62,501 nucleotides of DNA from a virus. The DNA is taken from positions 1 through 62,501 of IMG/VR virus record IMGVR_UViG_3300031772_000033, one strand, 5' to 3'. The translations under genes and the position numbers were made by a program. The notes below the pieces were generated by a model. The model had not been told where the DNA came from. It did not search any database and was given only the letters and a program-made list of their open reading frames with translations. Within the stretch, counting starts at the first letter, position 1, and every line of letters starts with the position of its first letter. Shown piece by piece: positions 1 through 62,501 of the stretch.

Positions 1-254
1 GGTTTCGGACACAACTTCACTTTATTAAGAGGCTATTAATGCTCAAAAAGATTCTCCTTTTCTCCTTCTTGTTTTGTGGTTTGGGTTGTTCTCAGGACGC
101 GGGGCCGAAAAGCCCCGCACCTGAGAGTGTTCCTTACGCACAATATCAGGAAACAAAAGACGCGCTCCACGATTACGTTTTAGAAAATCGCAGAGCCGCA
201 GAACTTAACAAAAAACTTATTAATGACATCAATGTTTTTGTCAATGAACTCAAA
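1..254. repeat. Left copy of the 254-bp end repeat
   Basis: The first 254 bases match 62248-62501 with a single substitution (G127 versus C62374). Such an overlap is what an assembler leaves when a circular or circularly permuted phage genome is written linearly, so the unit length is 62,247 bp. The mismatch changes one codon of the lipoprotein gene from Ser to Thr and could be a strain variant or an assembly error. Confidence 0.95.
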
Positions 255-3792: not shown

Positions 3793-5754
3793 ATGGCCGG
3801 TTCTGAAAAATTAGGTGAAGTCTACGTTGAGATTCGGGCGAAGATAGACAAACTTGAAGCCGAACTAAAAAAGGCACAAGGTACGGCACAAACTTCGGCT
3901 AAGAAAGTTGAGAATGAATTCAATAAGATTTCGCCCAAGGCTACGGGTATAAATAAATATATGGGAGATGCAACCGCTCAAACGGGAAAATTAGGCCATG
4001 CTCTTGACGGGTTGCAATCTAAATTTACCGGCGTTAGTGTCGCCTCGCTTTCAATGGCCGTTGGTGTTGGCCTTCTTGCCGGGGCACTGAAACGTGCCAT
4101 AACATCCGCCTTTGAATATCAAGATTCAATCGTTGATCTGTCTGAGCAAATGGGATTTCAAATTAGCACTACTCAGGCATTAGATTATATGATGAAGAAA
4201 GAAGGTAAGTCCGTGGAAAGCGTATCGGCTGGATTTACTATTTTAATGAGACAGATGCAAGAAGCAAAAACCAAGGGCGGCGAAGCTAAGGCAATGTTTG
4301 AAAAGTTAGGAGTTGCATTATACGATGACAATTTACAGGCCAGGTCAACTGAAGCAGTTTTTATGGATGTTAATGAAGCAATACATAATACCGTAAATCC
4401 ATCGGAAAGAGCAGGAAAGGCACTCGAAGTTTACGGAAGAGCATGGAAAAATATGGCTCCTCTTTTCCTCGAAGGTAAAGCAGGTGTTGCGGCGGCAAGC
4501 GCGGAACTTAAGGCGTTAAACGTGAATATTGACGTCGAAAGAACCAAGCGATATGAAGAAGCAGTTGCAAGAATGAAGATGACCTTTACCGGTTTAACCA
4601 CTCAGGTTTTCAGGGCGACTTTTGCGATTGGTGATTATTTAGGCAAGACGGCATTTTTCAACTGGCTCTTAATCAAGAATTTAGGAAATTATGGGAAAGC
4701 GGTTAAGGAATATAATGCAGCAAATGCCGAAGTAGATGCAGCGGAAAAGAAAAGATTCGATGATCGTATGGCAATGATAAATGCGGCAGGCGCGCAAAAA
4801 GAAGGACTAACGGAAGATGAGGTAAAAACAGAACAGAAGGTCGCAGAGGAAAAGGCAACCGCAATTAAAGCGTATTATGATACTATTAAATTTCTATCTG
4901 CCGATTATATGAATTACCGGATAGCTCAGATAAATATAGAGGCAATGGCATTAAAAGCAAAAGCCGGAAAAGAAATTGACATTGAAACTTGGAAATATAA
5001 TGAATTAAAGAAATTAGACAAGGAATATAAGGATTTAATTGGAGGCGTTGGCGCAAGACGTGGCGGGAAACCGGAACGCGGACTTCCTTCCGGAATTCCT
5101 GTCCCTTACATGCCAGGTGGTTCTAATTTGGGACCGGGTGGTGAAAATATAGATATAATAAAAGCCGAAGATGCGCAAAAACGATTCGAAGATACTTATA
5201 ATTTTGCAGAAGACAAAACATCCGCGTTTTTTAATGGAATGCTTCAAATCTCCATACAAACCGACAATAGGGTTGCGCAGGGTTTTGTCAATATGGCAAA
5301 CGCATTCACGGCTGAAGTTGAACGCATGATGGCAAAATGGGCGGCATTTCAGGCCTTGCGAGCAATTTCAAGTATACCGGGTTTGGGTTTTCTTTCGGCT
5401 TTAATTCCGGGTGGAGCGTCCGGAGGTGAATTCGTCGGCACTTCTTCGGGCGTTCGTAAGGTCGCGTCGTTCGCGGGCGGTGGTTCGTTTACTGTCCCGG
5501 CGGGCTTCAATAATGATTCCTTTCCGATGATGGTACAAACAGGCGAGCGCGTGAGCGTTACGCCTTCAGGAGGGACTGGAAAAGATATTCAAATGTTAAG
5601 TGAAATTAATAAATCAATTAAAATAATGAATCTTAATAATATGGCTATGCAGAAACAAATTAATGTCAATGCACAAGTGAGCGGAAATCTTCAGGGACGT
5701 GATCTTCAACTGGCAGTTGAAAAAAGTCAACGTTTCGATGACCGGACAAGATAA
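3793..5754 (+). CDS. Tail tape measure protein
   Basis: 653 residues. The N-terminal 40 residues form a helix (GEVYVEIRAKIDKLEAELKK) seen at the start of many tape measures. Hydrophobic stretches lie near residues 82-100 and 518-540. A Gly/Ser-rich end with GGEFVGTSSGVRKVASFAGG and FPMMVQTGERVSV is typical of tape measure C-termini. As the longest helical tail protein after the chaperones, it should set tail length; at roughly 1.5 A per residue this suggests about 100 nm. It starts on the base after the chaperone stop and ends overlapping the next ATG. Confidence 0.85.
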   Translation: MAGSEKLGEVYVEIRAKIDKLEAELKKAQGTAQTSAKKVENEFNKISPKATGINKYMGDATAQTGKLGHALDGLQSKFTGVSVASLSMAVGVGLLAGALKRAITSAFEYQDSIVDLSEQMGFQISTTQALDYMMKKEGKSVESVSAGFTILMRQMQEAKTKGGEAKAMFEKLGVALYDDNLQARSTEAVFMDVNEAIHNTVNPSERAGKALEVYGRAWKNMAPLFLEGKAGVAAASAELKALNVNIDVERTKRYEEAVARMKMTFTGLTTQVFRATFAIGDYLGKTAFFNWLLIKNLGNYGKAVKEYNAANAEVDAAEKKRFDDRMAMINAAGAQKEGLTEDEVKTEQKVAEEKATAIKAYYDTIKFLSADYMNYRIAQINIEAMALKAKAGKEIDIETWKYNELKKLDKEYKDLIGGVGARRGGKPERGLPSGIPVPYMPGGSNLGPGGENIDIIKAEDAQKRFEDTYNFAEDKTSAFFNGMLQISIQTDNRVAQGFVNMANAFTAEVERMMAKWAAFQALRAISSIPGLGFLSALIPGGASGGEFVGTSSGVRKVASFAGGGSFTVPAGFNNDSFPMMVQTGERVSVTPSGGTGKDIQMLSEINKSIKIMNLNNMAMQKQINVNAQVSGNLQGRDLQLAVEKSQRFDDRTR

Positions 5755-7022
5755 TGGCAACGAATCCTTATTATACTACAATTAACTTTCCAGTTGAAAC
5801 TCTTGGAACGGGTGAAACTTGGCAACTTATTTTAAAAATAACAACAGCTGTTTCGGGTGATACGGTTTCGGAAGATTCTTTCGATCATGGACTCACAATA
5901 ACGGATCATGGAACTTTGTCGTGGGAATATGATGTTGATAATCTGCTTTTAGTGCCGGGAGAAACACAATTAAAACTTGCCGATACGGAAAATTATTTAC
6001 ACGATTTTCTTTTTGCAATATCAACGATTTCGGATGCAACAGACAAAAAATTTGAAGTGACAATAAAAGTTGATACCGTCGAAGAATTTACAGGATATGT
6101 ACTTGAAGATGATTTATCATATGATGGAGTTACAAAAATAATTTCATTCTCAGCAGCATCCCAAATAACATTACTTAATAATACACCACTTTATGAAACG
6201 GGAGAAGCCATAAAAGATCCGATAGGTTATGGGGCAAATTTGACATCATATTACACAATAACTCAACTTATTTCTGATATTTACAGTTTTATGGGAGTTT
6301 CGAGTGGTTCTTTTTGGCAGGATTGGACATTTGGAGATGAAGATGGGACTGAAAGTATAACATTTGGTTCGTTGGAAATGCAACCAGGCGAAATTTATAA
6401 CAATTTATATATACAATTAGAAAATTTGGGTGATGTATTAAAATGTTTCGCAAATACCTTTTGTTGCAGAACAGGAATTAGAGACAATACACGTTTTTTC
6501 TTTGTAAAAAATAAATATTATAGTACGGTTTCTTCGCAGACGATTGTCCCATTTGAATATGATAAGGAATTCAAATATCCTAAAACACAATATTGTAAAT
6601 ATAGTTTTTATGAAGATGAAACAGCAACAGCGAAAAGTCATAATACCGGAGATTTTACGAATTTAGATTCTTCTAAAATAGAACGGACGGTTATTCCGTA
6701 TGGATATTACATCGATCCAATATATTATGCGAATATGTATTATGATAGCGGGGGATTTAAAAAACATATTTATCGCGCTAAAGACCCTATTTTTTGGGAT
6801 ACATATGCGTCTATTCCTCAAATATCTACTTCGGTTCAATGGATTACACGTCAGGACATGAGATATTTAATGGTACATAAATTTAAAGTTAAGGGTTTTA
6901 CTTATGATTTAACTACTACGGTTTTATATGATTCAAAATATTTTCAAATTACTTCCATGAGGAAAAACTGGAAGGCCGGATATACTGAAATGGAATGCTT
7001 TTACTGTGCGGCGGTGGCATAA
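5754..7022 (+). CDS. Tail tip/baseplate protein
   Basis: 422 residues, overlapping the tape measure stop by TAATG. It occupies the distal-tail position and is beta-rich and aromatic throughout (for example TETWQLILKITT-like strands near the start and YTEMECFYCAAVA at the end). No enzymatic motif is visible. A distal tail or baseplate hub role follows from order; the sequence family is not one I can name. Confidence 0.5.
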   Translation: MATNPYYTTINFPVETLGTGETWQLILKITTAVSGDTVSEDSFDHGLTITDHGTLSWEYDVDNLLLVPGETQLKLADTENYLHDFLFAISTISDATDKKFEVTIKVDTVEEFTGYVLEDDLSYDGVTKIISFSAASQITLLNNTPLYETGEAIKDPIGYGANLTSYYTITQLISDIYSFMGVSSGSFWQDWTFGDEDGTESITFGSLEMQPGEIYNNLYIQLENLGDVLKCFANTFCCRTGIRDNTRFFFVKNKYYSTVSSQTIVPFEYDKEFKYPKTQYCKYSFYEDETATAKSHNTGDFTNLDSSKIERTVIPYGYYIDPIYYANMYYDSGGFKKHIYRAKDPIFWDTYASIPQISTSVQWITRQDMRYLMVHKFKVKGFTYDLTTTVLYDSKYFQITSMRKNWKAGYTEMECFYCAAVA

Positions 7023-7441
7023 TGGCTATCTTCGGCACAGGCGCACCCAAGATCGTGAGTGGCGCGATAACGGTTGAACTGGATTACGCGGTTGTCCTCA
7101 AAAGTGAACCAGATGAAAGGTCGTTCGTTCAGGAAAACAAGTTGACAGGTGCGGACGGGCATGTTGATCGTGGTTATCATTGGGATTTTGAAATGCGTGA
7201 ACATATTTATAAATACGCAGATCCAATGGCGAAGTATTTAGCTCTGGTTGCATTGCTCGGAACCGAAGTAAATGTATTTCCGCATAGAGATGAACCGGCT
7301 TTGTCAAATGCATCAGGCGTGGTTCCGTTTCTATTTACTGAAATTGTCCCTGAATATCTGGAAACGGTTTCATATCGGGATGCGTTGGTTTTAAAGTTCA
7401 CAAGTTTGGCGTTTGTTGATTTATCATTATCATTAAGTTAA
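7022..7441 (+). CDS. Tail tip accessory protein, paralog 1
   Basis: 139 residues from the ATG at 7022, which overlaps the preceding stop (TAATG). An upstream in-frame start at 6995 lies inside the previous gene and is less likely. It begins MAIFGTGAPKIVSG and shares this opening and its general layout with the next protein (7451). The shared blocks include a VLKSEPD segment, a strand with YRWDFEMR-type aromatic residues, and a final VETVSYRDALVLKF-like strand. It is probably a small beta-sandwich structural protein of the tail end. Confidence 0.55.
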   Translation: MAIFGTGAPKIVSGAITVELDYAVVLKSEPDERSFVQENKLTGADGHVDRGYHWDFEMREHIYKYADPMAKYLALVALLGTEVNVFPHRDEPALSNASGVVPFLFTEIVPEYLETVSYRDALVLKFTSLAFVDLSLSLS

Positions 7442-7450
7442 GAACATGAA

Positions 7451-7948
7451 ATGGCAATATTTGGAACAGGCAGTCCGAAAATCATTACAAGCGCAAGCGT
7501 GGAAATCACGCTTACTTGTGCGAAAGTATTAAAAGATGAACCTGTATTTGACAACATCATTCATGAAAATCCGGTTTCAGGGGAACGGGTGTTTCTTGCC
7601 AAGGGTTACAGGTGGGAAGTACAACTCATGGCCTATATTTATAAGGACGCAGATCCCAAAGCATTGTATACATCCATCAACACGGCACTTTATGATGAAG
7701 TGACATATTATAGGCATTTAGACGCGGAACCAGTTTGCGATTCAGGTGGTTCCCCGGTTACATTCTGGTTAAAGAAAATAACTCCTGTTTACGTGGAAAC
7801 GGTTACATATAAGGATGCTTTAATATTGGATTTGGTTTCATTGAAGTATGTTGATTTAAGCAAAGCGGTATTCGGATATATTTCGGACGACACAACTGGC
7901 GGTCATCTCGTTGACGATGAGACAGGCGGAGCAATAACCACAGGATAA
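7451..7948 (+). CDS. Tail tip accessory protein, paralog 2
   Basis: 165 residues. It opens MAIFGTGSPKIITS and follows its neighbour block by block, including VETVTYKDALILDLVSLKYVDLS near the end, so the two arose by tandem duplication. It has an additional C-terminal tail of about 25 residues rich in Asp, Thr and Gly (DDTTGG and DDETGG repeats). No ribosome binding site is obvious, so translation may depend on coupling to the upstream gene 9 bases away. Confidence 0.55.
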   Translation: MAIFGTGSPKIITSASVEITLTCAKVLKDEPVFDNIIHENPVSGERVFLAKGYRWEVQLMAYIYKDADPKALYTSINTALYDEVTYYRHLDAEPVCDSGGSPVTFWLKKITPVYVETVTYKDALILDLVSLKYVDLSKAVFGYISDDTTGGHLVDDETGGAITTG

Positions 7949-7951
7949 AAT

Positions 7952-10309
7952 ATGAAAAAACTACTTTTAATATTTTTGTTGTGTGTTTTCTCTGGGGTAT
8001 CTTTGGGTGCGGCGGACATTGCGGTTTCCAATCTCACGCATTTGCATACGCTTGGGGATTCGCTTCTGTTCGTTTCGTCTTATCGGACAAGTGCGGTTAA
8101 TTATACGAGACTGTTTTCTTATTGGGCCTTAAAACGTGCGCTCGCGGATACTGGGTTGACATATACAAAGAATAATAGTACGGGTTTACGTCTTGGACTT
8201 AATGTTATTAAGCGATGGCATTTAAATTCAAATGTTGTGGACGGAACTACTATGAGTTTAAATACCACTTCCAATGCAATTCAAATCAAGACGGACGGAA
8301 TAGACAGTACAAGAATGAAAGTTAATTCCATTCCTTCGGATAGGATTGTTGACAATTATCCGGGTGTTTATATTACGCCAACTTTTTATTGGAATTCAAC
8401 AAATGATACGGTAAAATGGGATGCGGGATATGTAATTCGAGGAACATTAACCACGGAAAGCAATAATTGGACAGCATATATAGCAGGTTCTCAGGCCGTG
8501 GGAGAGGCTGAATTGTTGGCAATGAATATAACAGACGGAACGATAGCTAAGAGAGCTTGGAATAGTGCAACCAATAAATATACACGAGGGAATAAATATA
8601 GAGTTCTTGCTTATCATTACGGCGGACTTCATACTATTGCGCAAGAATTAGATTCAAAGACATATCAAAGACATGCTGATTTATTCAATGCGGCATATCA
8701 TAAATATGAAAGTACCTATATTACACCAGTCTTTTATTGGAATTATAACTACACAAAAGTCTGCTGGCAGGCCGGAACCGTGATAAGAACAGGTGCGGAT
8801 TGGACGGCTTTCGGTGCGGATTCCGTAGCAATTGCAACATCTCAAATATTAGTGATGAATGACAGTAGTGCAACATTAGCGGTCTATGATTGGAACGGCG
8901 GATCAACGCCTTTTTTGAATTCAACCAGAAACAAACAAAAAGTGGTTGCATATGTTCTCGGTGGTAACCGATATATTGATCCGTCTTTGAATCATGATAT
9001 AGGAGATCAATATAATACTCATTATAATAGATATGAAAGCGTTTTTATTTCTCCGTCTTTTTATAGAACAGGACATACGGGAAATACAATTAAATGGGAT
9101 GATATATGGATTGTTGGTAAAGATCCTACGATTCACGCATGGACCAAAATTGATGCAGATGGAACCGGGATAACACTTTCGGCAGATTATACGCTTTTGG
9201 CGATTGATTTGTATGCTGGAACGGTAATTGTAAAACAATGGAACGCAGATACAACTCCCTATATTAGAGACCCAAGATATAGAGTTATCGCATTTCATAT
9301 TACATCAACAAATACGGTTATTGTGCCAGCCTATGAAAATCTTGATTGGCGGGAAAGCGTTGACGATGCTATCGAGGGATTAACGGCACTTACGGGTGGA
9401 CAATGGGACGGTGACTCATTAGTTTGGCTTGGTACGTCAATACCCGCCGGGGCGGATTATCCTTCAATAGTTTGTTCTAATGTAGGCGCGATACTTGTTA
9501 ATTTATCCCAAGGATCGTCTCACGTTAAAACACAATTGGATACATCCATAAAAAATTATTCCGGCGATTGGACGGCTTCACTTTCCCAATTATCCGAAAC
9601 CATTGCAGAGAAACAATTTGCCATAGATAGTTTTGCCGTTATCAGGCCATTATTACAAAATAATCCTCCTACCGTTTCGGCAATGGCGGCGGATTCGGGT
9701 GGTATTCAAACAACAATCAAGAATTGGAGTTATGAATATCTGATAAAATCTTACGTTGACACGGCAGATGCGGCTTTTATTTCAAAGGCTGACTTGATAG
9801 TATTCGATCATGGTTATAATGATGCGCCGGATTCAAGTGTTTATACCTTAGCGGAATTGATTAATTCAAGAGATTCGTGGAGAACGGGATACGCGGACTC
9901 AGTTGCGGCGAGTAGGAATCGAAAGAATTATATTTCGGCAATGAATTATATACTTGATAAAATTTACGAAAAAGACCCATATCAAAGGATATTACTAATA
10001 GGTCATTATTATAATTATGCAAATCAATGGTTAATTCCAACACAGGAAGAACTTGCGGAATATTGGCAAATACCGATCTGTTTAGTTCATAAAAAGATGA
10101 ATTTTACAGATCAAAAAGTTACCGGGAGTCAGGCCTTTTGGGCTATATCACCCTGGAGTCTTTATACTGCTGGACAGAATACCGGCGAAGACATGACACA
10201 GGAAAATGTTTATATACCGGATCGGGTTCATTTACATACAGATCCAAATTGCCGTGCGGATAGTTTGGTTGCGAAAGTAATAACATCATTTGTAAAAGAA
10301 GTTTTTTAA
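7952..10309 (+). CDS. Secreted repeat protein with SGNH hydrolase domain
   Basis: 785 residues. The first 20 are a clear signal peptide (MKKLLLIFLLCVFSGVSLGA). Three related repeats start near residues 139, 255 and 363, each with Y/F-I-T/S-P-x-F-Y followed by K-x-x-W-x-A/D-G-x-V/I-I. The C-terminal third has the SGNH/GDSL blocks: GTSIPAG near 492 (nucleophile Ser), GYND near 620, and DRVHLH near 757 (Asp and His of the triad). This suggests an esterase or deacetylase acting on an acylated glycan, with the repeats binding the substrate. It lies among tail tip and fibre genes, so a tail spike is possible, but the signal peptide implies export. Both the enzyme class and the secretion look strong; the substrate is unknown. 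Confidence 0.7.
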   Translation: MKKLLLIFLLCVFSGVSLGAADIAVSNLTHLHTLGDSLLFVSSYRTSAVNYTRLFSYWALKRALADTGLTYTKNNSTGLRLGLNVIKRWHLNSNVVDGTTMSLNTTSNAIQIKTDGIDSTRMKVNSIPSDRIVDNYPGVYITPTFYWNSTNDTVKWDAGYVIRGTLTTESNNWTAYIAGSQAVGEAELLAMNITDGTIAKRAWNSATNKYTRGNKYRVLAYHYGGLHTIAQELDSKTYQRHADLFNAAYHKYESTYITPVFYWNYNYTKVCWQAGTVIRTGADWTAFGADSVAIATSQILVMNDSSATLAVYDWNGGSTPFLNSTRNKQKVVAYVLGGNRYIDPSLNHDIGDQYNTHYNRYESVFISPSFYRTGHTGNTIKWDDIWIVGKDPTIHAWTKIDADGTGITLSADYTLLAIDLYAGTVIVKQWNADTTPYIRDPRYRVIAFHITSTNTVIVPAYENLDWRESVDDAIEGLTALTGGQWDGDSLVWLGTSIPAGADYPSIVCSNVGAILVNLSQGSSHVKTQLDTSIKNYSGDWTASLSQLSETIAEKQFAIDSFAVIRPLLQNNPPTVSAMAADSGGIQTTIKNWSYEYLIKSYVDTADAAFISKADLIVFDHGYNDAPDSSVYTLAELINSRDSWRTGYADSVAASRNRKNYISAMNYILDKIYEKDPYQRILLIGHYYNYANQWLIPTQEELAEYWQIPICLVHKKMNFTDQKVTGSQAFWAISPWSLYTAGQNTGEDMTQENVYIPDRVHLHTDPNCRADSLVAKVITSFVKEVF

Positions 10310-10326
10310 TTTAATCGGAGGATAAA

Positions 10327-10791
10327 ATGAAATTCAAAAGTTTAATATTAATCCTGTTCTGCGTGGGGCTTTACGCGCAAGGCGTGCATCAAGACATCAA
10401 TGTTCTAACGCCCGAAGGCAGTTCAACATTCAGAATCAAGTATAATGCATCTGACACTTCGGCGGTTTACCATACCTATGAAATAATGAGCGCGCGGTTC
10501 TGGGTGGGCGATTCAATCGGCGGAGCGACTGATTCGGCATACGTTACTTTCATACTGCAAATTGGCCCTGGCGATAATGCTTCTGGAGTCATGGCCGGTT
10601 ATACGACCGTTGAATCGTGGGTAGTCTCAACCGATTCCACGTTTTCAACTCAAATGATTACAGACAATGCAATCCCGAATGGTTCGCATTTCAGGTATAT
10701 TTTAACTGGAAGTACAACCAACAGACAGGAATATTCGGGGTCATTGGCAAAGATTCTTCATATGAATTATGAAAGTGATCCGAGAAATTAG
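10327..10791 (+). CDS. Secreted protein of the fibre cluster
   Basis: 154 residues with a signal peptide (MKFKSLILILFCVGLYAQG) whose likely cleavage is after Ala, before Gln. The mature part is Ser/Thr-rich and beta-like (TFRIKYNASDTSAVYHTYE). ATCGGAGGATAAA gives a good ribosome binding site. It is one of a set of exported proteins placed after the SGNH protein. No family is recognised; a fibre or fibre-assembly accessory is the best guess. Confidence 0.6.
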   Translation: MKFKSLILILFCVGLYAQGVHQDINVLTPEGSSTFRIKYNASDTSAVYHTYEIMSARFWVGDSIGGATDSAYVTFILQIGPGDNASGVMAGYTTVESWVVSTDSTFSTQMITDNAIPNGSHFRYILTGSTTNRQEYSGSLAKILHMNYESDPRN

Positions 10792-10850
10792 AAAAATCAT
10801 TTTCTTTTAAAGAAAATGAAATTAAAATAAACAAAATCAATTTATAACAT

Positions 10851-10905
10851 AGAGGCGTTTAATGCCCGACCGTCCGCAAGGATGAATCGGGTTTATTTTT
10901 GGAGG
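10851..10905 (+). promoter_or_regulatory. GNRA-hairpin leader element, copy A
   Basis: The segment reads AGAGGCG, then GCCCGA (10864-10869), an inner TCC-GCAA-GGA hairpin (10874-10882 approx.), TCGGGT (10887-10892), a T-rich run, then GGAGG and the ATG of the fibre gene at 10910. The same plan recurs at 57242-57299 before the protease-scaffold gene. A 6-bp outer stem enclosing a GNRA tetraloop and followed by T residues could be a terminator/attenuator or a translation control element. The upstream 60 bases (10792-10850) are AT-rich and hold no gene. Confidence 0.55.
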
Positions 10906-10909
10906 AAAT

Positions 10910-12727
10910 ATGAAAAAATTAATTATCTTTTTGACATTTCTGCCCTTGTTTATTTTCGCACAAGGGCCATTCGGACATGGTATCAATAAGGATTCGACTT
11001 GGGCAGTAGTCGGAGTGGATACGTTGGAACCATTAAATAATTCTACAATTTACATGCAACATTTCACGGTAGACACGGCGGTTGTGCAAAAGTACATTCA
11101 AGAAAAACGTATTACTCGGGTGGATTCGCTGACCAGATGGGTGCGGGATGGAGATACGTTGACGATTGACGCAAGTAAAGATTTACGTTTGCTTTCGTTA
11201 CGTGTTGGCGGAGTAATGAAATTCCAGGTGGATTCAGCGGGGAATTCCATGACTGCCGGAAAGGTTACAACCAATGACTCTCTTGCTAATGTCAAAGGAA
11301 TCCGTACCGAAGGTATTAGTTTACTTAAAGGTAAGGTAACTACGAATGATTCGCTTGCAAATATTAAAGGAATCAGGACAGAAGGGATCTCCTTACTGAA
11401 AGGCAAGGTCACGGCCTCGGATTCAATCGTGGTTACGAAAGGTATCCGTAATGAAGGTCCAAATCTTTTCAAAGGCAAAACAATTCAACGTGATACATTG
11501 CAAGTCAATTCTTTTGAAAATGTAGGTAATGCGAATGCAGGTGCACTTGTTTCTCCCATGACAGTTACTACTAATGCAATTGGTACAATGTCCACTACGG
11601 CGGCCACGGCAAATGCTTATGGATTGTCTTTACGTAATATGACGCCTGCAATTAATGGTACGCAACAGGACAGTCCTCCTATTAGATTCAGAGGATATGG
11701 TTATGGCACTACTGCAAGTACAAGTCAAAGTGGGGATTGGCGTATATATAATCAGATGACACAGAGTACAGTTCCAGCGAGTAAGTTGATGTTTGACTAT
11801 TCAGCAAATAGTGCAGCTTATGTAAATGTATTTAATGTAAGAAAAGATGGACTTATATATTCAGCTTCAGATATTACTACAATTGGAGCATTAACGAGTT
11901 ATCCTGTTGTATCTTCATCTTCAACTGATGGCATTGTGGGCTATTCAAGTGCAGCGGCTTCTGCGGGCGGCACTATTAGAATGTCTCCGCGTGTTCGTCT
12001 AACCGCTAACGTCTGGGATTCTACCGCAACCGCCGCAAGCAAGACGCAGAACTTTACCCAAGAAGTCATCCCTGTCTCCGGTGGCGGTGGCGGTGGAGTC
12101 CCCGCTCCTTCTGCTTCAACCGCAAGACTGCGTTGGAGTTTTGACCATAATGGGGGTGGGTATAGTGAGATTCTTGCGTTGACTGGCGATGGGCGACTGA
12201 TAAAGACGAATGGTGCAACCCTCAACAATACAGGGTATAAACTCACAACCGTAAACTCAATAAGCGGGTGCAATAAAACAACCGTGACCTTTACAGCTTA
12301 TAGTTTGGCAATCACAGACGCTGGAGCGAACGGGGCTCATGGTTCAGTTAAACTTATTGATTTCCCCGAAGGCCATATCAAACTGATCGGAGCGCACCAA
12401 GTCCTTACGCTTACAAGAGTAGGTACGGCAATTGACGCTGACGCTGTTTTCGACGCAGGCATAGGATCGATAACTGCTGGCGTGGATAATGAGGAACTGG
12501 CTGGCACGGAAACCGAGATAACCGGAGTTGAGGACGAGGCTGTTCTTGCTGCCGGAACTCTTACTTTTGATACGCTGAACGGCGTTGACCAACTACTTGA
12601 TGGATCAGGAACTTCATCGGATGCGTGGCTTAATGTTGCTGTGGCTGCCGCTGACTGTTCTGGTAACGATGCGTTTTTAGTTACCGGAACCGTGACGATT
12701 ACGTGGGTATTACTTGGAGACGATTAA
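10910..12727 (+). CDS. Secreted tail fibre-like protein with 24-residue repeats
   Basis: 605 residues. A signal peptide ([19 protein letters not shown]) precedes a region with three 24-residue repeats at about residues 117-189, each of the form GKVT[20 protein letters not shown]. A middle beta-rich region follows, with a Gly stretch near residue 394. The C-terminal domain contains [14 protein letters not shown] and ends [12 protein letters not shown]. Repeats of this kind build trimeric phage fibre shafts. The ribosome binding site GGAGG is 6 bases upstream. As a fibre it should stay in the cytoplasm for assembly, so the signal peptide is the odd part. Confidence 0.65.
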
Positions 12728-12728
12728 T

Positions 12729-13673
12729 ATGAAACGGTTCATATTTATAATCCTATTTCTGCCTGTTTTATTGCTTGGGCAGATGACCTCCGAATTCATC
12801 CCGATAAAAGGTTTATCTCATTGGGATGAACAAAGCGGGAAATGGTATATCGAATTTGATCGTTTTAAGTTGGCATATAAAATTCCAAGTATAAAAGTAT
12901 ATAACTTATCTAATATAGATACTACCGGAATTATTGAAAATAAAGAATATGGTTATAATAATATCCTCGATGATTGGAAACCGAAAGAAGTTTTTTCTGC
13001 GGGTGGAACAGGTCCTCCCGGTCCCCAGGGCGATCCGGGTGAACCGGGACCACAGGGCGAGCAAGGCATACAAGGTATCCCCGGAAACGACGGCGCACCG
13101 GGATCAAAAGGTGACACAGGGGAACAGGGAATTCAAGGCATTCAGGGCATACAGGGTCCACCGGGAGCGGACGGTAGTGTGGTTTTGGTCCTTTCCCTTA
13201 CGTCAAACGCTCCCACAAACAGTACCGCGACAGGCGTTGAGATTCTTGGGCTGAATAAAACCTTAACAGCCGGAACCTACGTCTTTAAATATTACATAAT
13301 TTACCAAGCAGGCGCCGCGACAACAGGAGTTCAGTTCGGAGTAAATTATACAGGCACAGCCAAGGCCTTCGTCGTCAATATGTCTTTTGCCGGAACGGGA
13401 ACTACTGCCTCTACGGGTGCGGCGTCTCAGGTTGCTTCGGGAGCCACAGGGAATGTCGGGGAAACCTTCGCCGCAAGAGCGGAAAGCACAACCGCGCCGA
13501 ATCTTGGGGCGACCGTGAGCGTGGACGCACTTGGCAGTAATATGTTAGCCATAATCGAAGGGGTCATGGTTGTGAGCGATGGCGGTGATTTGGAATTATG
13601 GCACGCCTCGGAAGTTGCGGCGGCCTCGACCGTGATGGCCGGAACATCTCTGATTCTTACAAAAACAAATTGA
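12729..13673 (+). CDS. Secreted collagen-like fibre protein
   Basis: 314 residues from the ATG at 12729, preferred over 12714 because GGAGA is well placed and a signal peptide ([18 protein letters not shown]) then begins the protein. Residues about 95-147 are Gly-X-Y collagen-like triplets ([19 protein letters not shown] and onward). They are followed by a beta-rich C-terminal domain that probably forms the trimer head. Collagen-like segments are common in phage fibres. The start overlaps the previous gene's end region closely (stop 12727). Confidence 0.7.
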
Positions 13674-13680
13674 GGACATT

Positions 13681-14064
13681 ATGAAAAGACTATTATTTTT
13701 ACTTTTTCCGTTTGCGCTTTTCGGACAAGGTCAAATAGAGGAACCGATTGAAGATCCTATACCGATAGTAAAGACACAACTCATTATTGATCACCAGAAT
13801 GTAATAATTGATGCGGTTCAGTATGTGGATGCAAAGTTGGTCTACGAATGCAATCCGATCATGATAAAGAATTGCGATAAGAAAAAATTCGTAACCAGAG
13901 TTGATGCGATCAAGACAACCGCTCAAAAGTTGACCGTGGAATACAGGGATCCAAGACTCGGAAAGATGTCTCAGGTGTTTCTCGGAGCCATGCCGGTGGT
14001 GACAGAAATAAAAGAAGACAATATTATTATGGATTCGGGCGAAAATATAATTATTTTAAAATAA
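13681..14064 (+). CDS. Small secreted protein of the fibre cluster
   Basis: 127 residues with signal peptide MKRLLFLLFPFALFGQ, a short acidic Pro-rich segment (EEPIEDPIP), then a mixed alpha/beta domain. One pair of Cys residues lies near residues 58 and 64 (ECNPIMIKNCDKK), which could form a disulphide after export. GAGGACATT precedes the ATG. Function is not recognised. Confidence 0.6.
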   Translation: MKRLLFLLFPFALFGQGQIEEPIEDPIPIVKTQLIIDHQNVIIDAVQYVDAKLVYECNPIMIKNCDKKKFVTRVDAIKTTAQKLTVEYRDPRLGKMSQVFLGAMPVVTEIKEDNIIMDSGENIIILK

Positions 14065-14094: not shown

Positions 14095-14463
14095 ATGATG
14101 ATTGAAAAAAAAGAAGACGGAAACGGCGGAACCCATCTTTCCGCTCATCTTAAAAGAATCAAACCGGAATATATAGGACCTTTTGTTTCTTTGCTTGTGG
14201 CATTCTTTTCAATAGCTGGTTTTTTTATTGCGATTGGGATTAATAAGGCCACAAGAGATTCGGAAATTGAAACCCTGAAACAAAACTGCATTATCATTAA
14301 TCAAAGTATCGGGAAATTAGAAGAAGGACGTAGAGATAACCGGACGAAAATCGACACCCTGATTATACGTACAAGCGTTCTTTCTGTTCAAATGGGACAA
14401 TTAATAGATAATCAGTCTAAACAGTATAATCTTTTAATGGCACATATCATACCCAAGAATTAA
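14095..14463 (+). CDS. Membrane-anchored coiled-coil protein
   Basis: 122 residues. A single transmembrane segment (FVSLLVAFFSIAGFFIAIGI, about residues 30-49) is followed by a long helical region with heptad-like spacing. One anchor and a coiled coil at the end of the late tail operon would fit a spanin-like, holin-accessory or superinfection protein, but no diagnostic motif is present. A terminator follows 24 bases downstream. Confidence 0.6.
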   Translation: MMIEKKEDGNGGTHLSAHLKRIKPEYIGPFVSLLVAFFSIAGFFIAIGINKATRDSEIETLKQNCIIINQSIGKLEEGRRDNRTKIDTLIIRTSVLSVQMGQLIDNQSKQYNLLMAHIIPKN

Positions 14464-17693: not shown

Positions 17694-17897
17694 ATGCCTG
17701 ACATCCAAACCATTTTCTGGAATTGCGATTGTTCCCTCAACGCAACGGAACATGACATCGAATTGGGCGACAATGTAATCATCTGCCTCGACTGCCTATC
17801 TCATAAACGGATTACGGAGGAAATCAAGGAGGAAATCAATCACCCGACAAATCCGATGGCCGAAGTCAACGAACAAATCTGCTTTTGTACGGAATAA
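17694..17897 (+). CDS. Small Cys-rich protein
   Basis: 67 residues with CGAGGTGAGCT upstream. It has CDC near residue 11, CLDC near residue 31 and CFC near the end, a layout compatible with a zinc ribbon. The middle is acidic. No specific family. Confidence 0.55.
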   Translation: MPDIQTIFWNCDCSLNATEHDIELGDNVIICLDCLSHKRITEEIKEEINHPTNPMAEVNEQICFCTE

Positions 17898-17920
17898 CAT
17901 CAAATCGAGGAGGAAGGACT

Positions 17921-18676
17921 ATGTGTCAACACAAATCAGCAATCTGGACGCGCAAGGGATTGTTATATTCCTTACGATGGGATTCACACGAAAAAATCAT
18001 CGAAGAAAATAAATTGAAAGACAATTCGATGAATCCTGATTTTGTGCGCATTGAATTCTTGCCGAAAAACGGGATTTGGGAAGATTACTTGAAACCGGAA
18101 AATTATCGAATCCAAATTGACCAAGATTTTAGGCCGGATTGGTTTTCGGTGGATGATCCCAAACTCAAAAAACAATGCGTCGAAATGATCAAAAAGGTAT
18201 GGGACGAAACCTTCATCATAGACAAGGAAGGATTAGAATTAAAAGACAAATTATTTTATATCAAAAACAGCAAAAGAATCGTGGCGTGGGGAAACAGTTC
18301 CGTCGTGGCGCGGGGAAACAGTTCCGTCGTGGCGTGGGGAAACAGTTCCGTCGTGGCGCGGGGAAACAGTTCCGTCGAGGCGTGGGAAAACAGTTCCGTC
18401 GTGGCGTGGGAAAACAGTTCCGTCGTGGCGCGGGGAAACAGTTCCGTCGAGGCGTGGGAAAACAGTTCCGTCGTGGCGTGGGAAAACAGTTCCGTCGTGG
18501 CGCGGGGAAACAGTTCCGTCGTGGCGTGGGAAAACAGTTCCGTCGAGGCGTGGGAAAACAGTTCCGTCATATTATATGATAACTCGAAAATCAAACAATT
18601 GAATGACAATGCAACATACTTGAAAGATAATATCAGATATGTTGTAAATATTAAAAATGTCAAAACACACAAATAA
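17921..18676 (+). CDS. Octapeptide-repeat protein
   Basis: 251 residues from the ATG at 17921, which has GAGGAGGAAGG in place. The N-terminal 120 residues (MCQHKSAIWTRKG onward) form a globular domain found ahead of such repeats in other phage proteins. Residues about 121-216 are twelve exact-length octapeptides of the type V/E-A-W/R-G/E-N-S-S-V, encoded by twelve 24-bp DNA repeats. Regular Asn-Ser-Ser-Val ladders like this should fold into a right-handed beta-helix. It sits just ahead of the recombination genes. Function unknown; a DNA-mimic role like other beta-helical phage proteins is speculation. Confidence 0.7.
   Translation: MCQHKSAIWTRKGLLYSLRWDSHEKIIEENKLKDNSMNPDFVRIEFLPKNGIWEDYLKPENYRIQIDQDFRPDWFSVDDPKLKKQCVEMIKKVWDETFIIDKEGLELKDKLFYIKNSKRIVAWGNSSVVARGNSSVVAWGNSSVVARGNSSVEAWENSSVVAWENSSVVARGNSSVEAWENSSVVAWENSSVVARGNSSVVAWENSSVEAWENSSVILYDNSKIKQLNDNATYLKDNIRYVVNIKNVKTHK
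18281..18568 (+). repeat. Twelve tandem 24-bp repeats
   Basis: The unit is GTGGCGTGGGAAAACAGTTC plus CGTC, with alternating G/A and T/C variants, repeated 12 times without any partial copy (288 bp). All copies stay in frame inside the octapeptide-repeat protein. Copy number is expected to vary by slippage between related phages. Confidence 0.95.
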
Positions 18677-29944: not shown

Positions 29945-30360
29945 AAATTGAGATTGTATTATTTATTATAAGTATGACGGCTTTTTTGGTTTGGGGCTAT
30001 TGTTCTTATCTTTTATTGATAAGTGATCGTAAAAATTGGAGGAAGCAAGAAATGAAACGTATATTGACCATTACTCTGCTTGCCACTATGCTGGCGGGAT
30101 GTAAGAAAGTACGGATAGAACAGGAAGTTAAAACTCAAAGTTTTATAAATTGTACTTATCGAGTTTCGACATGGCTTTGGATTTACGATTTTCCTTGGTG
30201 TTTAGGTAGTACAATCGAACACTCTTTTTATAATTATAATGTTACTAAAGATAGTGTTTGCGCCGTAAAGGTGAGACAACTTAAAGCAATGCTTCCGTAT
30301 TATATAAAAGCAAAACAGATACTCAAAGACGGTATTGATCCGTGTAAGGAGAGACCATGA
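29941..30360 (+). CDS. Membrane-anchored/lipoprotein gene with two in-frame starts
   Basis: 139 residues from the ATG at 29941, beginning with a transmembrane segment (IVLFIISMTAFLVWGYCSYL). A second in-frame ATG at 30052 has GGAGG at 30038 and starts a classic lipoprotein signal (MKRILTITLLATMLAGCKK, lipobox LAGC). The mature part has four further Cys. The long form would be membrane-anchored and the short form lipid-anchored. A u-spanin or paired spanin function is possible but only a guess. Confidence 0.6.
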   Translation: MKIEIVLFIISMTAFLVWGYCSYLLLISDRKNWRKQEMKRILTITLLATMLAGCKKVRIEQEVKTQSFINCTYRVSTWLWIYDFPWCLGSTIEHSFYNYNVTKDSVCAVKVRQLKAMLPYYIKAKQILKDGIDPCKERP

Positions 30361-30761
30361 AGAAGCTTATAATCTACATTTTTTTGTTGATGTTCTCAGG
30401 ATGTGCATGGGGACAGATTCTAAGCGATCCAGGCATTAATGACACGCGAGAGAATATTCAAACAGAGAATACTCAGATAAAGATATTTCGTGCCAATGAT
30501 CCTTATGATATGGGCCGCTCGTTCGAGCGTTGGCTTAGACTTTCCGACCTTGTGGATTATTGGGATGAGTACAAGGAATGGACGAAAGTGAACCCAATAA
30601 AATATGCAACTGGTACGTGGACCTGTGTTTTGGATTCTATGAGCAACGGTCGAATAATAGGGAGAAATTATCCAGATTCTTGCACGATGCAAAGACCGAT
30701 TAGTGCGGAAGATTTTATTGAGAACTTTCTACGCGGCAAACTGCGAGAGGCAAAGCCATGA
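30357..30761 (+). CDS. Exported protein, possibly a lipoprotein
   Basis: 134 residues, ATGA-coupled. Signal sequence MKKLIIYIFLLMFSGCAWGQ offers either a lipobox at FSGC or signal peptidase cleavage before Gln. The mature part is acidic and aromatic with one Cys pair (TCVLD, SCTMQ). It follows the other exported gene, so the two may act together in the periplasm. Confidence 0.6.
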   Translation: MKKLIIYIFLLMFSGCAWGQILSDPGINDTRENIQTENTQIKIFRANDPYDMGRSFERWLRLSDLVDYWDEYKEWTKVNPIKYATGTWTCVLDSMSNGRIIGRNYPDSCTMQRPISAEDFIENFLRGKLREAKP

Positions 30762-44773: not shown

Positions 44774-45575
44774 TAAATTCACGAAATTTAAAAGTATTTT
44801 CAAATTGTCCGTTATTTATCGGTTCAGTCCGGTTAAGATTTTCCGTGCAATTAAGGAAATTATACGGTTTATAAATGATTTCACATTATTCGATAATCAA
44901 CGTAAACAGTCAACATATAAATTTCCATACGGAAATTTGAATCCCTGTATGGGCGAACGGGACAGAGACGGGATTAATTCGAAGGAGTATTTTTATCAGG
45001 ATTTTCATGTTGCAAAAAGAATACTTGAAAACAAACCAGAGAAACATGTTGATATCGGATCGCGATTTGATGGATTCATTACTCATTTGTGCCTATTCCG
45101 TGAGGTTGAAGTTTTCGATATCCGGCCCTTGACCGTGACTTTGCCAAATTTGAAATTTATTCAGGCTGACATGATGGAATCTATAAGTAAATCATTTCTT
45201 GATTATGCCGATTCAATTTCATGCCTTCACGCCTTGGAACATTTCGGCCTTGGCAGGTATGGAGATCCGATTGATTATGATGGACACTTAAAGGGACTTG
45301 ATAATATTTACAGGATTTTAAGGAAAGGTGGAAAATTTTATTTATCCGTGCCAATAGGCGAAGATAGGATTGAGTTTAATGCTCATCGAGTATTTTCGCT
45401 TGGTTATCTCTATGCCTTATTCGAAGATAAATATAAAATTAATAATTTCTCATATATAGATAATACCGGCCCGTTAGGAAATTTTCATGAAAATATTTTT
45501 GTATTTGCGCATGATATAAATAATAATTTTGGTATTGTTCAGGGATGCGGAATATTTGAAATGACCAAATTATGA
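44760..45575 (+). CDS. DUF268-type SAM methyltransferase
   Basis: 271 residues, overlapping the previous gene. DIGSRFDGFITHL near residue 98 is the AdoMet motif I, VEVFDIRPL follows, and CLHALEHFGLGRYGDPIDYD near 157 is the DUF268 signature. These methylases are usually found in surface polysaccharide clusters. Overlaps the next gene by ATGA. Confidence 0.75.
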   Translation: MKLYNKFTKFKSIFKLSVIYRFSPVKIFRAIKEIIRFINDFTLFDNQRKQSTYKFPYGNLNPCMGERDRDGINSKEYFYQDFHVAKRILENKPEKHVDIGSRFDGFITHLCLFREVEVFDIRPLTVTLPNLKFIQADMMESISKSFLDYADSISCLHALEHFGLGRYGDPIDYDGHLKGLDNIYRILRKGGKFYLSVPIGEDRIEFNAHRVFSLGYLYALFEDKYKINNFSYIDNTGPLGNFHENIFVFAHDINNNFGIVQGCGIFEMTKL

Positions 45576-45955
45576 AATATTTTATATTATTTATTATGTT
45601 ATTAATAAGCATGGTGAATGCACAAGTTATGTGCAAAAAATCGTGGGATTCTTGTGATGGAGCATTTTTCAAATATGATAAATCCGAACATTTAATCGGT
45701 TCCGCAATTTTATATCAAGGTTTTCGAACATATAATTGGGAACCTAAAAAGCGATTATTGTATTCTGTTTTATCTGGTTTTCTTTGGGAGGTTAAAGATT
45801 CGTTAATTTCTTATAAGGATTTTGGTAGAATGGGTGGTGATGGATTTGATTATAAGGATTTTTTGGCCGATTGTGCGGGTATATTCTTATCATATGAATT
45901 AGAAAAGATTCATATTAATATAACATTTAGATTATACCTGGAAAAGGAAATTTAA
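45572..45955 (+). CDS. Secreted YfiM/DUF2279-like protein
   Basis: 127 residues, ATGA-coupled. Signal peptide MKYFILFIMLLISMVNAQ. The mature part has YDKSEHLIGSAILYQGF, GFLWEVKDS and DGFDYKDFLADCAG, the DK-x-x-H, E-x-x-D and D-x-x-AD layout of YfiM-like envelope proteins. Overlaps the next gene by TAATG. Function in the cassette unknown. Confidence 0.6.
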   Translation: MKYFILFIMLLISMVNAQVMCKKSWDSCDGAFFKYDKSEHLIGSAILYQGFRTYNWEPKKRLLYSVLSGFLWEVKDSLISYKDFGRMGGDGFDYKDFLADCAGIFLSYELEKIHINITFRLYLEKEI

Positions 45956-49252: not shown

Positions 49253-49312
49253 AGGTTAAACGTTCTTATTTATATGGGGAAGAGTGATAACTCACAAGGG
49301 AATAAAGACTCG

Positions 49313-50470
49313 ATGGTACAATACCAATTAAAACTTAAACTAAACAAAAAACAAGAAACCACACTTAATGAATGGTTGTGGAATCTTACTGGAGTTTGGA
49401 ATTGGGCTATTCGTAAAATAGAACTTGATGCTCAATATGGAATATATTACAGTAAATTCACTTTTCAAAATATACTTGCGAATCATAGCAAAAAAATTTG
49501 TATTCCAAGCCATGTTTTAGGTGGTATACTTTCACAGGCACATCTCGCATGGTCTCGATGCTTTAAAAGGAAAGCAAAAAAACCACACTTTAAGGGACAA
49601 CGAAACAAATTAAATAGTATCCCATTTCCCGATCCCATTAGATCACCCAAAGAAAACCACATTACTCTTTTGGGTATTGGAAAGATACGTTTTCATAAAC
49701 AGAAATTACCAGAAGGAAAAATTAAATGTGGCCGGATTATTAAAAGGGCAAGCGGGTGGTATTTATGTGTTTTTATTGATGCCGAACGAAAATCGATTGA
49801 ACGCAAAGCATTTGGACGAATAGGCATTGATCCGGGATTTAAAAATCTTTTAACATTATCAACCGGCGAAAAAATAGAACATCCAAGAGAATTAGAGGCA
49901 ACAGAAAAACGTTTAGGACAAGCACAAAGAGGACACAATAAAAAATTAGCATCACGTCTTTCGGAACGCAGAGCCAATAGAACGAAAGACAGGAATCATA
50001 AACTTTCACATAAACTTATCGGTGAAAATATTTTTATTGCATTTAGTGCGGACAAACATCAGAACATAGCAAGAAAATTCGGGAAGTCAGTTTCCAGTTC
50101 TTCCCATTATCAGTTAAGACAGATGCTTTCCTACAAGAGCCATTCAGGCGGTACGGAATACGTTGAGACTGATTCGAGAAATTCCACCAAGACCTGTTCG
50201 AACTGTGGGGCCTTAACCGGTCCTACGGGCTTGAGCGGCTTGTCGGTAAGGCAATGGGTGTGTGTTGCTTGTGGGGCAGAACATGACCGCGATATAAATG
50301 CGGCACGGAATACGCTCATTGTCGGGGCCGGAATGGCCCACGAGGTGCATAATGTAAAAGCATTATGCAGTCCGAAATCTTATGCAACTGGGTTCAAATC
50401 TTTCGCGCTTGCGGGTGCGGATTCGTTAGTATTGAGCCCATGCGCAAAGGAAGTTCAATTATTCGCCTGA
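49313..50470 (+). CDS. tnpB: TnpB (IS200/IS605 OrfB-like RNA-guided nuclease)
   Basis: 385 residues from the ATG at 49313 (a 398-residue version starts at 49274, without a clear ribosome binding site). The order fits TnpB: helix-turn-helix start (QYQLKLKLNKKQETTLNEWL), IDPGFKN with Asp173 (RuvC I), a Glu in the region LIGENIFI (RuvC II), paired Cys CSNCG (295, 298) and CVACG, and HDRDINAARN (RuvC III). No TnpA transposase is nearby. TnpB normally uses a guide RNA from the 3' end of its own gene. It separates two small SH3-like genes. Confidence 0.85.
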   Translation: MVQYQLKLKLNKKQETTLNEWLWNLTGVWNWAIRKIELDAQYGIYYSKFTFQNILANHSKKICIPSHVLGGILSQAHLAWSRCFKRKAKKPHFKGQRNKLNSIPFPDPIRSPKENHITLLGIGKIRFHKQKLPEGKIKCGRIIKRASGWYLCVFIDAERKSIERKAFGRIGIDPGFKNLLTLSTGEKIEHPRELEATEKRLGQAQRGHNKKLASRLSERRANRTKDRNHKLSHKLIGENIFIAFSADKHQNIARKFGKSVSSSSHYQLRQMLSYKSHSGGTEYVETDSRNSTKTCSNCGALTGPTGLSGLSVRQWVCVACGAEHDRDINAARNTLIVGAGMAHEVHNVKALCSPKSYATGFKSFALAGADSLVLSPCAKEVQLFA

Positions 50471-58720: not shown

Positions 58721-59119
58721 ATGGCAGAAGGTGGATATTTTCTCGATACAACCTTCAAAGCCACCGCGACTCTTGCCGCTTACCAGTATCATGCTATGGT
58801 TTTGAGTGCCGCGAATACCGTCAATGTTGCCGGTGCGAATGCGATTGTAATTGGCATCTTACAGAACAAACCCGACGCCGCAGGTGAAGCGGCCATTGTA
58901 AGGGTTTGCGGTGAATCAAAATTGGTTATTGGTGAACGGATGGATCTCGGAACTATGATAACCTCTAAATCGGACGGTCACGGGGAAAGAGCGGATGCAA
59001 ATGCAGAACATTGCTTCGCTATTGCCCTGGAGTCTGGTACTACGGATGGCGATATTGTTTCGGTCCTACTGAATCATTGCGATGCGTATGCTACAGACGA
59101 CACCGCTCCGACCGCATAA
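58721..59119 (+). CDS. Decoration-like capsid protein, paralog 1
   Basis: 132 residues, AGGAGTAAATA upstream. Shares with the two next genes the opening MAEG, TFKAT, SYQYH-type motif (AYQYHAMVLSAANTV), GILQNKPDAAGEAAIV and SKLVIGE. The beta-tulip pattern resembles DUF2190-like decoration proteins that stabilise capsids. Three copies may make a mixed surface. Confidence 0.65.
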   Translation: MAEGGYFLDTTFKATATLAAYQYHAMVLSAANTVNVAGANAIVIGILQNKPDAAGEAAIVRVCGESKLVIGERMDLGTMITSKSDGHGERADANAEHCFAIALESGTTDGDIVSVLLNHCDAYATDDTAPTA

Positions 59120-59130
59120 AGGAGGAAATC

Positions 59131-59532
59131 ATGGCAGAAGGTCATTATGGTTTTGATAAAGCTTTCAAGGCATATGGAGACTTGTCGAGTTATCAATATC
59201 ACTTTGTGAGTCTATCATCTTCGGGAACCGTGAATCTGTCCAGTAATAACGGACGGGCTATCGGTATCCTGCAAAACGTACCCAATGCGGCTGGCGAGGA
59301 TGCGATTGTTCGCCTTCTCGGAGTTTCCAAGCTTGCCGCAGGGGAAGCGATTGACGAAGGTACAATGCTTACGTCCAAATCGGACGGACACGGCGAGGAA
59401 GCGGATGCCGCGAGTGAATGGTATTCCGCCATTGCGATTCAGTCCGCTGCCGGCACTTCCGGCGAACTTATTTCAGTGTTGCTCAGACATGGCGATTCTT
59501 ACGCGGCTGACACCACAGAACCTACGGCTTAG
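59131..59532 (+). CDS. Decoration-like capsid protein, paralog 2
   Basis: 133 residues from the ATG at 59131 (AAAGGAGGAAATC). Same blocks (SSYQYHFVSLSSSGTV, GILQNVPNAAGEDAIV, SKLAAGEAIDEGTMLTSKSD, GHGEEADA). The closest of the three to copy 1 in the central part. Confidence 0.65.
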   Translation: MAEGHYGFDKAFKAYGDLSSYQYHFVSLSSSGTVNLSSNNGRAIGILQNVPNAAGEDAIVRLLGVSKLAAGEAIDEGTMLTSKSDGHGEEADAASEWYSAIAIQSAAGTSGELISVLLRHGDSYAADTTEPTA

Positions 59533-59540
59533 GAGGAAAC

Positions 59541-59927
59541 ATGGCTGAAGGATCAACTGGTTTAAACATTACTTTCAAGGCCGCGCGCGATTTGTCTTCA
59601 TATCAGTATCATTTCGTTTCCGTTTCCGCCGCGAATACGGTTGACTATTCCGGCGATAAGGGACGATGTATTGGTATTTTGCAGAACGCCCCAAATGCAG
59701 CGGGTGAGGCAGCGGTTGTCATGGTGGAAGGTATTTCCAAGCTCCGCGCTTACGGCGCGGTTAACCGTTTGGAAAAACTTATGTCTTCCGCACAATCGGG
59801 ATATGCGGCGCATGGTGAAGTTGCCGCTACCGCAAGTACCTGGGTTGGCGCGATTGCCTTGGAAACCGGAACAGCATCGGACGATCTTCTGACCGTGCTG
59901 ATTACCGGATTTGAATTACAAGCTTAA
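59541..59927 (+). CDS. Decoration-like capsid protein, paralog 3
   Basis: 128 residues (TTAGGAGGAAAC upstream). Same plan, with YQYHFVSVSAANTVDYSG and GILQNAPNAAGEAAVV. It lacks the acidic C-terminal tail of the other two and ends LITGFELQA, so it may play a different position. Confidence 0.65.
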   Translation: MAEGSTGLNITFKAARDLSSYQYHFVSVSAANTVDYSGDKGRCIGILQNAPNAAGEAAVVMVEGISKLRAYGAVNRLEKLMSSAQSGYAAHGEVAATASTWVGAIALETGTASDDLLTVLITGFELQA

Positions 59928-60935: not shown

Positions 60936-61145
60936 ATGAAGTATAAAGTTTTAAGACCCGTAATAGCAAAAAAGAAACTCTATGCGATAGGGAGCACGGT
61001 GGATATGAAAGAATCTCCGGTCCACGTTGCATTGGGGTATCTTGAAGTTATCGGGGAAAGCGAACCAGCCGCAGAACCTAATTTTGAGGCTGAACCGGAA
61101 CCTAAAATTCCAAAGGCAACGGTTAAACGTGGAGGCAAAGAATGA
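60936..61145 (+). CDS. Small head protein
   Basis: 69 residues, TTGGAGGAAT upstream. Beta start (MKYKVLRPVIAKKKLYAIGS), then an acidic Pro-rich tail (EPAAEPNFEAEPEPKIPK). Similar in build to 1082-1303. Overlaps the next gene by ATGA. Confidence 0.55.
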   Translation: MKYKVLRPVIAKKKLYAIGSTVDMKESPVHVALGYLEVIGESEPAAEPNFEAEPEPKIPKATVKRGGKE

Positions 61146-62275: not shown

Positions 62276-62501
62276 GAGGCTATTAATGCTCAAAAAGATT
62301 CTCCTTTTCTCCTTCTTGTTTTGTGGTTTGGGTTGTTCTCAGGACGCGGGGCCGAAAAGCCCCGCACCTGAGACTGTTCCTTACGCACAATATCAGGAAA
62401 CAAAAGACGCGCTCCACGATTACGTTTTAGAAAATCGCAGAGCCGCAGAACTTAACAAAAAACTTATTAATGACATCAATGTTTTTGTCAATGAACTCAA
62501 A
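62248..62501. repeat. Right copy of the 254-bp end repeat
   Basis: Repeats bases 1-254 with one substitution at 62374. It contains the last 28 bases of the fibre-like gene and the first 216 bases of the lipoprotein gene. Confidence 0.95.
62286..62501 (+). CDS. Lipoprotein gene, second copy (cut by window end)
   Basis: First 72 codons of the gene at 39-359, identical except Thr for Ser in the segment PAPETVPYAQ. It is the same gene seen twice because the genome is circular, not a duplication. Confidence 0.85.
   Translation, partial: MLKKILLFSFLFCGLGCSQDAGPKSPAPETVPYAQYQETKDALHDYVLENRRAAELNKKLINDINVFVNELK

Follow-up and report, generated by a model that had tools for sequence, protein, structure and literature searches.

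Five genes in a row at the end of a tail module (7952-14064), together with a sixth gene at 61142, probably encode adhesion and accessory fibres of the virion that are exported through the Sec pathway, processed, and joined to the phage particles in the periplasm or at lysis. This reading draws on an analogy with Cellulophaga phages. Functional-looking export signals, together with the presence of comparable proteins in Cellulophaga particles, make export, processing and later joining the simplest account. The DNA analysed, referred to here as the window, is the whole stretch of 62,501 nucleotides from IMG/VR virus record IMGVR_UViG_3300031772_000033, and its genes are named by their first position.

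Genome and gene order

The ends of the window (1-254 and 62248-62501) overlap by 254 bp with one mismatch, so that the record, despite its linear classification, probably holds the complete genome, with a length of about 62,247 bp. The overlap makes genes 61142 and 39 neighbours, located between the major capsid gene at 59946 and the neck gene at 359, and it also repeats part of gene 39 at 62286-62501. The tape-measure-like gene at 3793 (PHROG match) is followed by 5754-7948 and then by the signal-peptide row, which thus begins directly downstream of the tail module, in the position of tail fibres. No direct relatives of 7952 or of the tail gene 5754 were found in viral_contigs. The predicted exported proteins, and the gene that closes the module, are as follows (^ marks the predicted cleavage site; G001 is the relative described below):

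7952-10309, + strand: 785-aa fibre-like protein with signal peptide MKKLLLIFLLCVFSGVSLGA and cleavage at LGA^A or GAA^D
10327-10791, + strand: 154-aa exported protein; LYA^Q; homologue in the equivalent row of G001
10910-12727, + strand: 605-aa exported fibre; IFA^Q, repeated stalk, C-terminal domain
12729-13673, + strand: 314-aa exported collagen-like fibre; LLG^Q, C-terminal globular part
13681-14064, + strand: 127-aa protein, small and lacking fibre features; LFG^Q or GQG^Q
14095-14463, + strand: small membrane protein, the last of the module; weakly similar to the module-closing protein of G001 (E 0.002)
61142-62275, + strand: 377-aa exported fibre-like protein between the capsid and neck genes; AIA^Q
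39-359, + strand: 106-aa lipoprotein or Sec-exported protein; lipobox-like GLGC, or GCS^Q
30357-30761, + strand: 134-aa protein encoded away from the module; SGC lipobox or WG^Q
45572-45955, + strand: 127-aa protein encoded away from the module; VNA^Q

Other features of the genome were observed. Three tandem paralogues at 58721-59927, 5' of the capsid gene, are 51-60% identical to a single gene of G001 and are possibly decoration proteins. The protein encoded at 17885-18676 has about a dozen tandem copies of a VVARGNSSVEAWENSS-like segment, and that at 49274-50470 resembles a TnpB-type (IS605 OrfB) protein, judged by sequence alone. A relative of the capsid gene is found on a contig binned as Candidatus Methanoperedens (L080), which may be an archaeal provirus or else a phage that was binned wrongly.

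Signal peptides and the Q-rule

A rule-based signal-peptide scan was applied to the 122 called genes of the window. The preliminary description had stated that 7952, 10327, 10910, 12729, 13681, 61142 and 39 all start with signal peptides, and this was borne out, as all seven are open reading frames with good starts and all seven are called by the scan. Its list of exported proteins was incomplete, since 30357 and 45572 are called as well. A further call, 29158, resembles a membrane segment. The five proteins of the row and 61142 have tripartite signal peptides at their N-termini. Glutamine is found at +1 of the predicted cleavage site in all but one (7952) of the six signal peptidase I candidates in the structural module, and also in 45572. 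With the same scan, 0.7% of internal protein segments were called and 0.06% had Q at +1; the corresponding values for shuffled N-termini were 1.75% and 0.07%.

In Bacteroidetes, signal peptidase I substrates follow a "Q-rule", with an average Q-value of 71%, and the glutamine is cyclised to pyroglutamate (PMC5837995, PMC10653852). High Q-values also occur in some related bacteria, such as Ignavibacterium (PMC5837995). The Q at +1 therefore makes the signal peptides of the window look functional and points to a host in Bacteroidota or a similar group. The earlier claim that these proteins are exported, which the signal peptides support, is strengthened by the Q-rule. Gene 39 had been described as a lipoprotein, a reading made ambiguous by the alternative signal peptidase I site given above. 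No match to the C-terminal sorting domain of Type IX secretion was found in Pfam at E 0.1.

Fibre features of the exported proteins

Several of the proteins had been credited with fibre features. Pfam, PHROG, homologue and stalk matches lend support to this for 12729, 10910 and 7952, and none was found for 10327, 13681 and 39. Protein 12729 matches Pfam Collagen (3.2e-9) and the tail fiber family phrog_5073 (3.2e-15), so that its domains are shared with fibres of known phages. An alternative TTG start for this gene at 12714 is unnecessary because GGAG precedes its ATG. For 10910 and 7952 the sharing is partial. The C-terminal domain of 10910 matches phrog_11997 and is common to proteins of Pseudomonas phage Rollin and a spring-water podovirus, neither of which has a signal peptide; a segment of its stalk is similar to one in 61142, a protein that had no match among annotated phages. 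Protein 7952 has recurring ITP-FYW segments followed by a C-terminal SGNH-hydrolase-like domain. Its C-terminus matches phrog_11541 (1.5e-13) and has homologues in Microcystis and Vibrio phages, both without a signal peptide, the Vibrio protein being annotated as SGNH. GTSI, GYND and DRVH blocks are visible in the translation; no SGNH match was obtained in Pfam, and the predicted structure of the C-terminus has a pLDDT of 32, too low for use. Proteins 10327 (predicted structure, pLDDT 36, likewise too low) and 13681 (no family match in Pfam or PHROGs) share no recognised fibre domain with known phages. Outside the module, 45572 has a match to the lipoprotein family phrog_26616 (1e-3).

A similar row in the closest relative

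The closest relative found is G001 (IMGVR_UViG_3300018080_000309; 40,420 bp), whose major capsid protein is 59% identical to that of the window. The capsid, portal, decoration-like and neck genes are homologous in the two genomes. The tail, however, is largely non-homologous, and only part of the tape-measure protein matches, with 27% identity. Despite this difference G001 also has four Q-rule signal-peptide proteins after the tail, and another signal-peptide protein in the slot of 61142:

L013:4732-7128: row protein, VFA^Q
L013:3925-4371, - strand: row protein, VHS^Q; homologous to 10327, with 30% identity (E 3e-13) across the mature part
L013:3216-3923: row protein, AFA^Q
L013:2749-3150: row protein, VHA^Q
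L002:11123-11863: signal-peptide protein in the 61142 slot, immediately ahead of the neck gene

The 798-aa and 235-aa row proteins have tail-fibre PHROG matches. The 798-aa protein combines a tail-fibre stalk with a LamG lectin domain, and the G001 fibres differ from those of the window in this LamG-type lectin and in a repeated GIGT-type stalk. Scans with alignments of 10327 and of the neck protein returned G001 alone. A capsid-based survey of viral loci gave 17 signal-peptide calls among 1,071 genes, the one of G001 included; most of them resemble membrane segments, and there was one call with Q, a lipoprotein. Since such proteins are essentially absent from the other loci of the capsid family, the trait is not a property of that family. 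No Bacteroidota prophage was found in genome_contigs.

Signal-peptide rows in Cellulophaga phages

Fourteen Bacteroidota phages were scanned, twelve isolates picked by accession plus Colly and Harreka. The row was absent from 13 of them, Colly and Harreka among these, and present in one, Cellulophaga phage phi10:1. The signal-peptide row is thus a trait of certain phage groups and not of every Bacteroidota phage. Flavobacterium phage FCL-2 has a single fibre-like signal-peptide protein, the 147-aa gp71 (L153:11364-11807), in which a fibre-type stalk directly follows the Q-rule signal peptide (STYS^QVGIATTTPTETLDVNG). In phi10:1, gp091-gp095 are five consecutive genes that all have Q-rule signal peptides. 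Homology searches added rows in phi19:1, phi18:3, phi46:3, Ingeline and Nekkels. The rows of phi10:1, phi19:1 (Assiduviridae), phi18:3, phi46:3 (Pachyviridae) and Ingeline (Duneviridae) resemble that of the window in being consecutive Q-rule genes of the fibre module that encode fibre-type proteins. They differ in including annotated pectate lyase proteins, where the window has an SGNH protein instead.

The GenBank records of gp091-gp094 of phi10:1 carry the note 'experimental MS/MS proteomics', and the same holds for all proteins of the signal-peptide rows of phi19:1 (gp101-gp104) and phi18:3 (gp085-gp087). A total of 11 signal-peptide proteins of these three phages have the MS/MS virion note, and 10 of the 11 have Q at +1; the predicted processed N-terminal peptide of phi10:1 gp094 is pyroglutamyl-TVEGTVGSDGSLIPYNVSGGLDETAVDTK. 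Purified virion preparations may carry soluble fibres along, and MS/MS would then detect these too. The preliminary description had started from the assumption that signal peptides are normally missing from virion fibres, which these 11 proteins contradict for some Bacteroidota phages. Detection in particles, one half of the finding (particles with intact N-termini) that it had set against its own reading, is what the MS/MS records report in the Cellulophaga phages. Phage phi4:1, from the same host species, has an MS-detected virion protein that is related to phi10:1 gp092 and has no signal peptide, so the gp092-type domain itself needs no export.

The N-terminal region of these fibres is strongly conserved. 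Assiduviridae and Pachyviridae members of the phi19:1 gp102 family have one and the same signal peptide (100% identity) and agree at 95-100% of the positions in residues 20-60, whereas over the remaining ~640 residues phi19:1 is only 26-27% identical to phi18:3 and phi46:3 and 31% identical to Nekkels. The codons of the signal peptide show synonymous differences only, at 1-6 of 20 codons per pair. At the sequence level this is the usual fibre plan, with a conserved attachment end, which here includes the signal peptide, and a variable receptor-binding end. A comparable arrangement was seen in gp093-gp094 of L152 and their counterparts in L154-L158, which have the same signal peptide and mature N-terminus and different C-termini across Cellulophaga phage families.

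Alternative explanations

It is unlikely, but deserves the most attention among the alternatives, that the proteins are exported and never become part of the virion, and that soluble or surface fibres, the SGNH esterase and the collagen-like protein modify the cell surface, block superinfection or help release. The signal peptides and the SGNH-like enzyme domain would suit such a role, 30357 and 45572 are predicted to be exported and yet lie outside the structural module, and for Q-rule proteins of Porphyromonas phages a role in modifying the outer membrane has been put forward (Matrishin et al. 2023, PMC10367356). However, the row directly follows the tail genes, its proteins have fibre stalks, the same architecture comes with virion MS/MS records in three Cellulophaga phages, and no second, leaderless fibre row was recognised within the window. 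Three roles had been proposed for the window's proteins: acting on or coating the infected cell, forming an extracellular fibre, or attaching to particles at release. Because MS/MS records place 11 proteins with this architecture in Cellulophaga virions, the favoured role is that of attaching to particles at the time of export or later; merely coating or acting on the infected cell is less favoured.

It could also be argued that the hydrophobic N-terminus plays no part in export and is retained as a tail anchor in ordinary cytoplasmic assembly. The absence of amino-acid changes in the gp102-family signal peptide, and its conservation together with the mature N-terminus, goes beyond what a generic signal peptide would be expected to show and agrees with an anchor. 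This explanation is nevertheless improbable, as Q at +1 after an AXA-like site, which would be pointless in an anchor, occurs repeatedly among unrelated fibres from several phage groups, and homologous-domain fibres of other phages attach without a hydrophobic N-terminus; in non-Bacteroidota phages the homologous fibre domains lack signal peptides. Slightly harder still to credit is an inefficient signal peptide that leaves part of the protein in the cytoplasm for virion assembly and sends the rest out as free fibre or depolymerase. Dual targeting of this kind would reconcile functional signal peptides with virion MS/MS, and other phages are known to produce free soluble depolymerases, but the signal peptides look strong and there is no consistent candidate for an internal start that would give a leaderless form. 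The signal-peptide calls rest on a rule-based scan only, and they might be chance hydrophobic N-termini; the chance rates are far too low for this and the pattern recurs in G001 and in the Cellulophaga phages, which makes a prediction artefact very improbable indeed.

Proposed assembly route and its significance

In the preferred reading, fibre and accessory fibre proteins would be made as Sec precursors, signal peptidase I would remove the leader, and glutaminyl cyclase would cap the exposed glutamine as pyroglutamate. Folding of the mature fibres would follow in the periplasm, and they would be added to the rest of the particle either there or when the cell lyses. Cleavage, the pyroglutamate, residence in the periplasm and the place of joining are steps that we infer. 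The virion evidence would carry over to the proteins of the window through the shared architecture, no sequence similarity having been detected between the window fibres and the Cellulophaga fibres. A two-compartment build, in which capsid and tail are made in the cytoplasm and the fibres are Sec-exported, trimmed, capped with pyroglutamate and joined outside the cytoplasm, is somewhat favoured for some Bacteroidota tailed phages.

Virion proteins with signal peptides are familiar from the inoviruses, whose coat proteins have them and which, as filamentous phages, are assembled at the membrane. The window is different in that it belongs to a tailed dsDNA phage whose structural genes are conventional in other respects. 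Phages of Porphyromonas gingivalis encode Q-rule secreted proteins without known function that have been proposed as outer-membrane modifiers (Matrishin et al. 2023, PMC10367356), and the Q-rule in these proteins is also described in PMC10653852. They share the Q-rule signal peptides with the window but have not been identified as virion fibres. No paper linking tailed-phage virion fibres with signal peptides was found, those of Cellulophaga included, in a literature coverage that is incomplete. The components are known, and their combination appears to have gone unremarked though it is present in public records.

In the textbook view, the virions of tailed phages are assembled in the cytoplasm. 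If the proposed route is true, the last assembly step of some phages would fall in the periplasm or at lysis, and the signal peptidase and glutaminyl cyclase of the host would be phage assembly factors. Q-rule signal peptides in a fibre module would also be a sequence mark for the host phylum and for the adhesion genes of unannotated phages.
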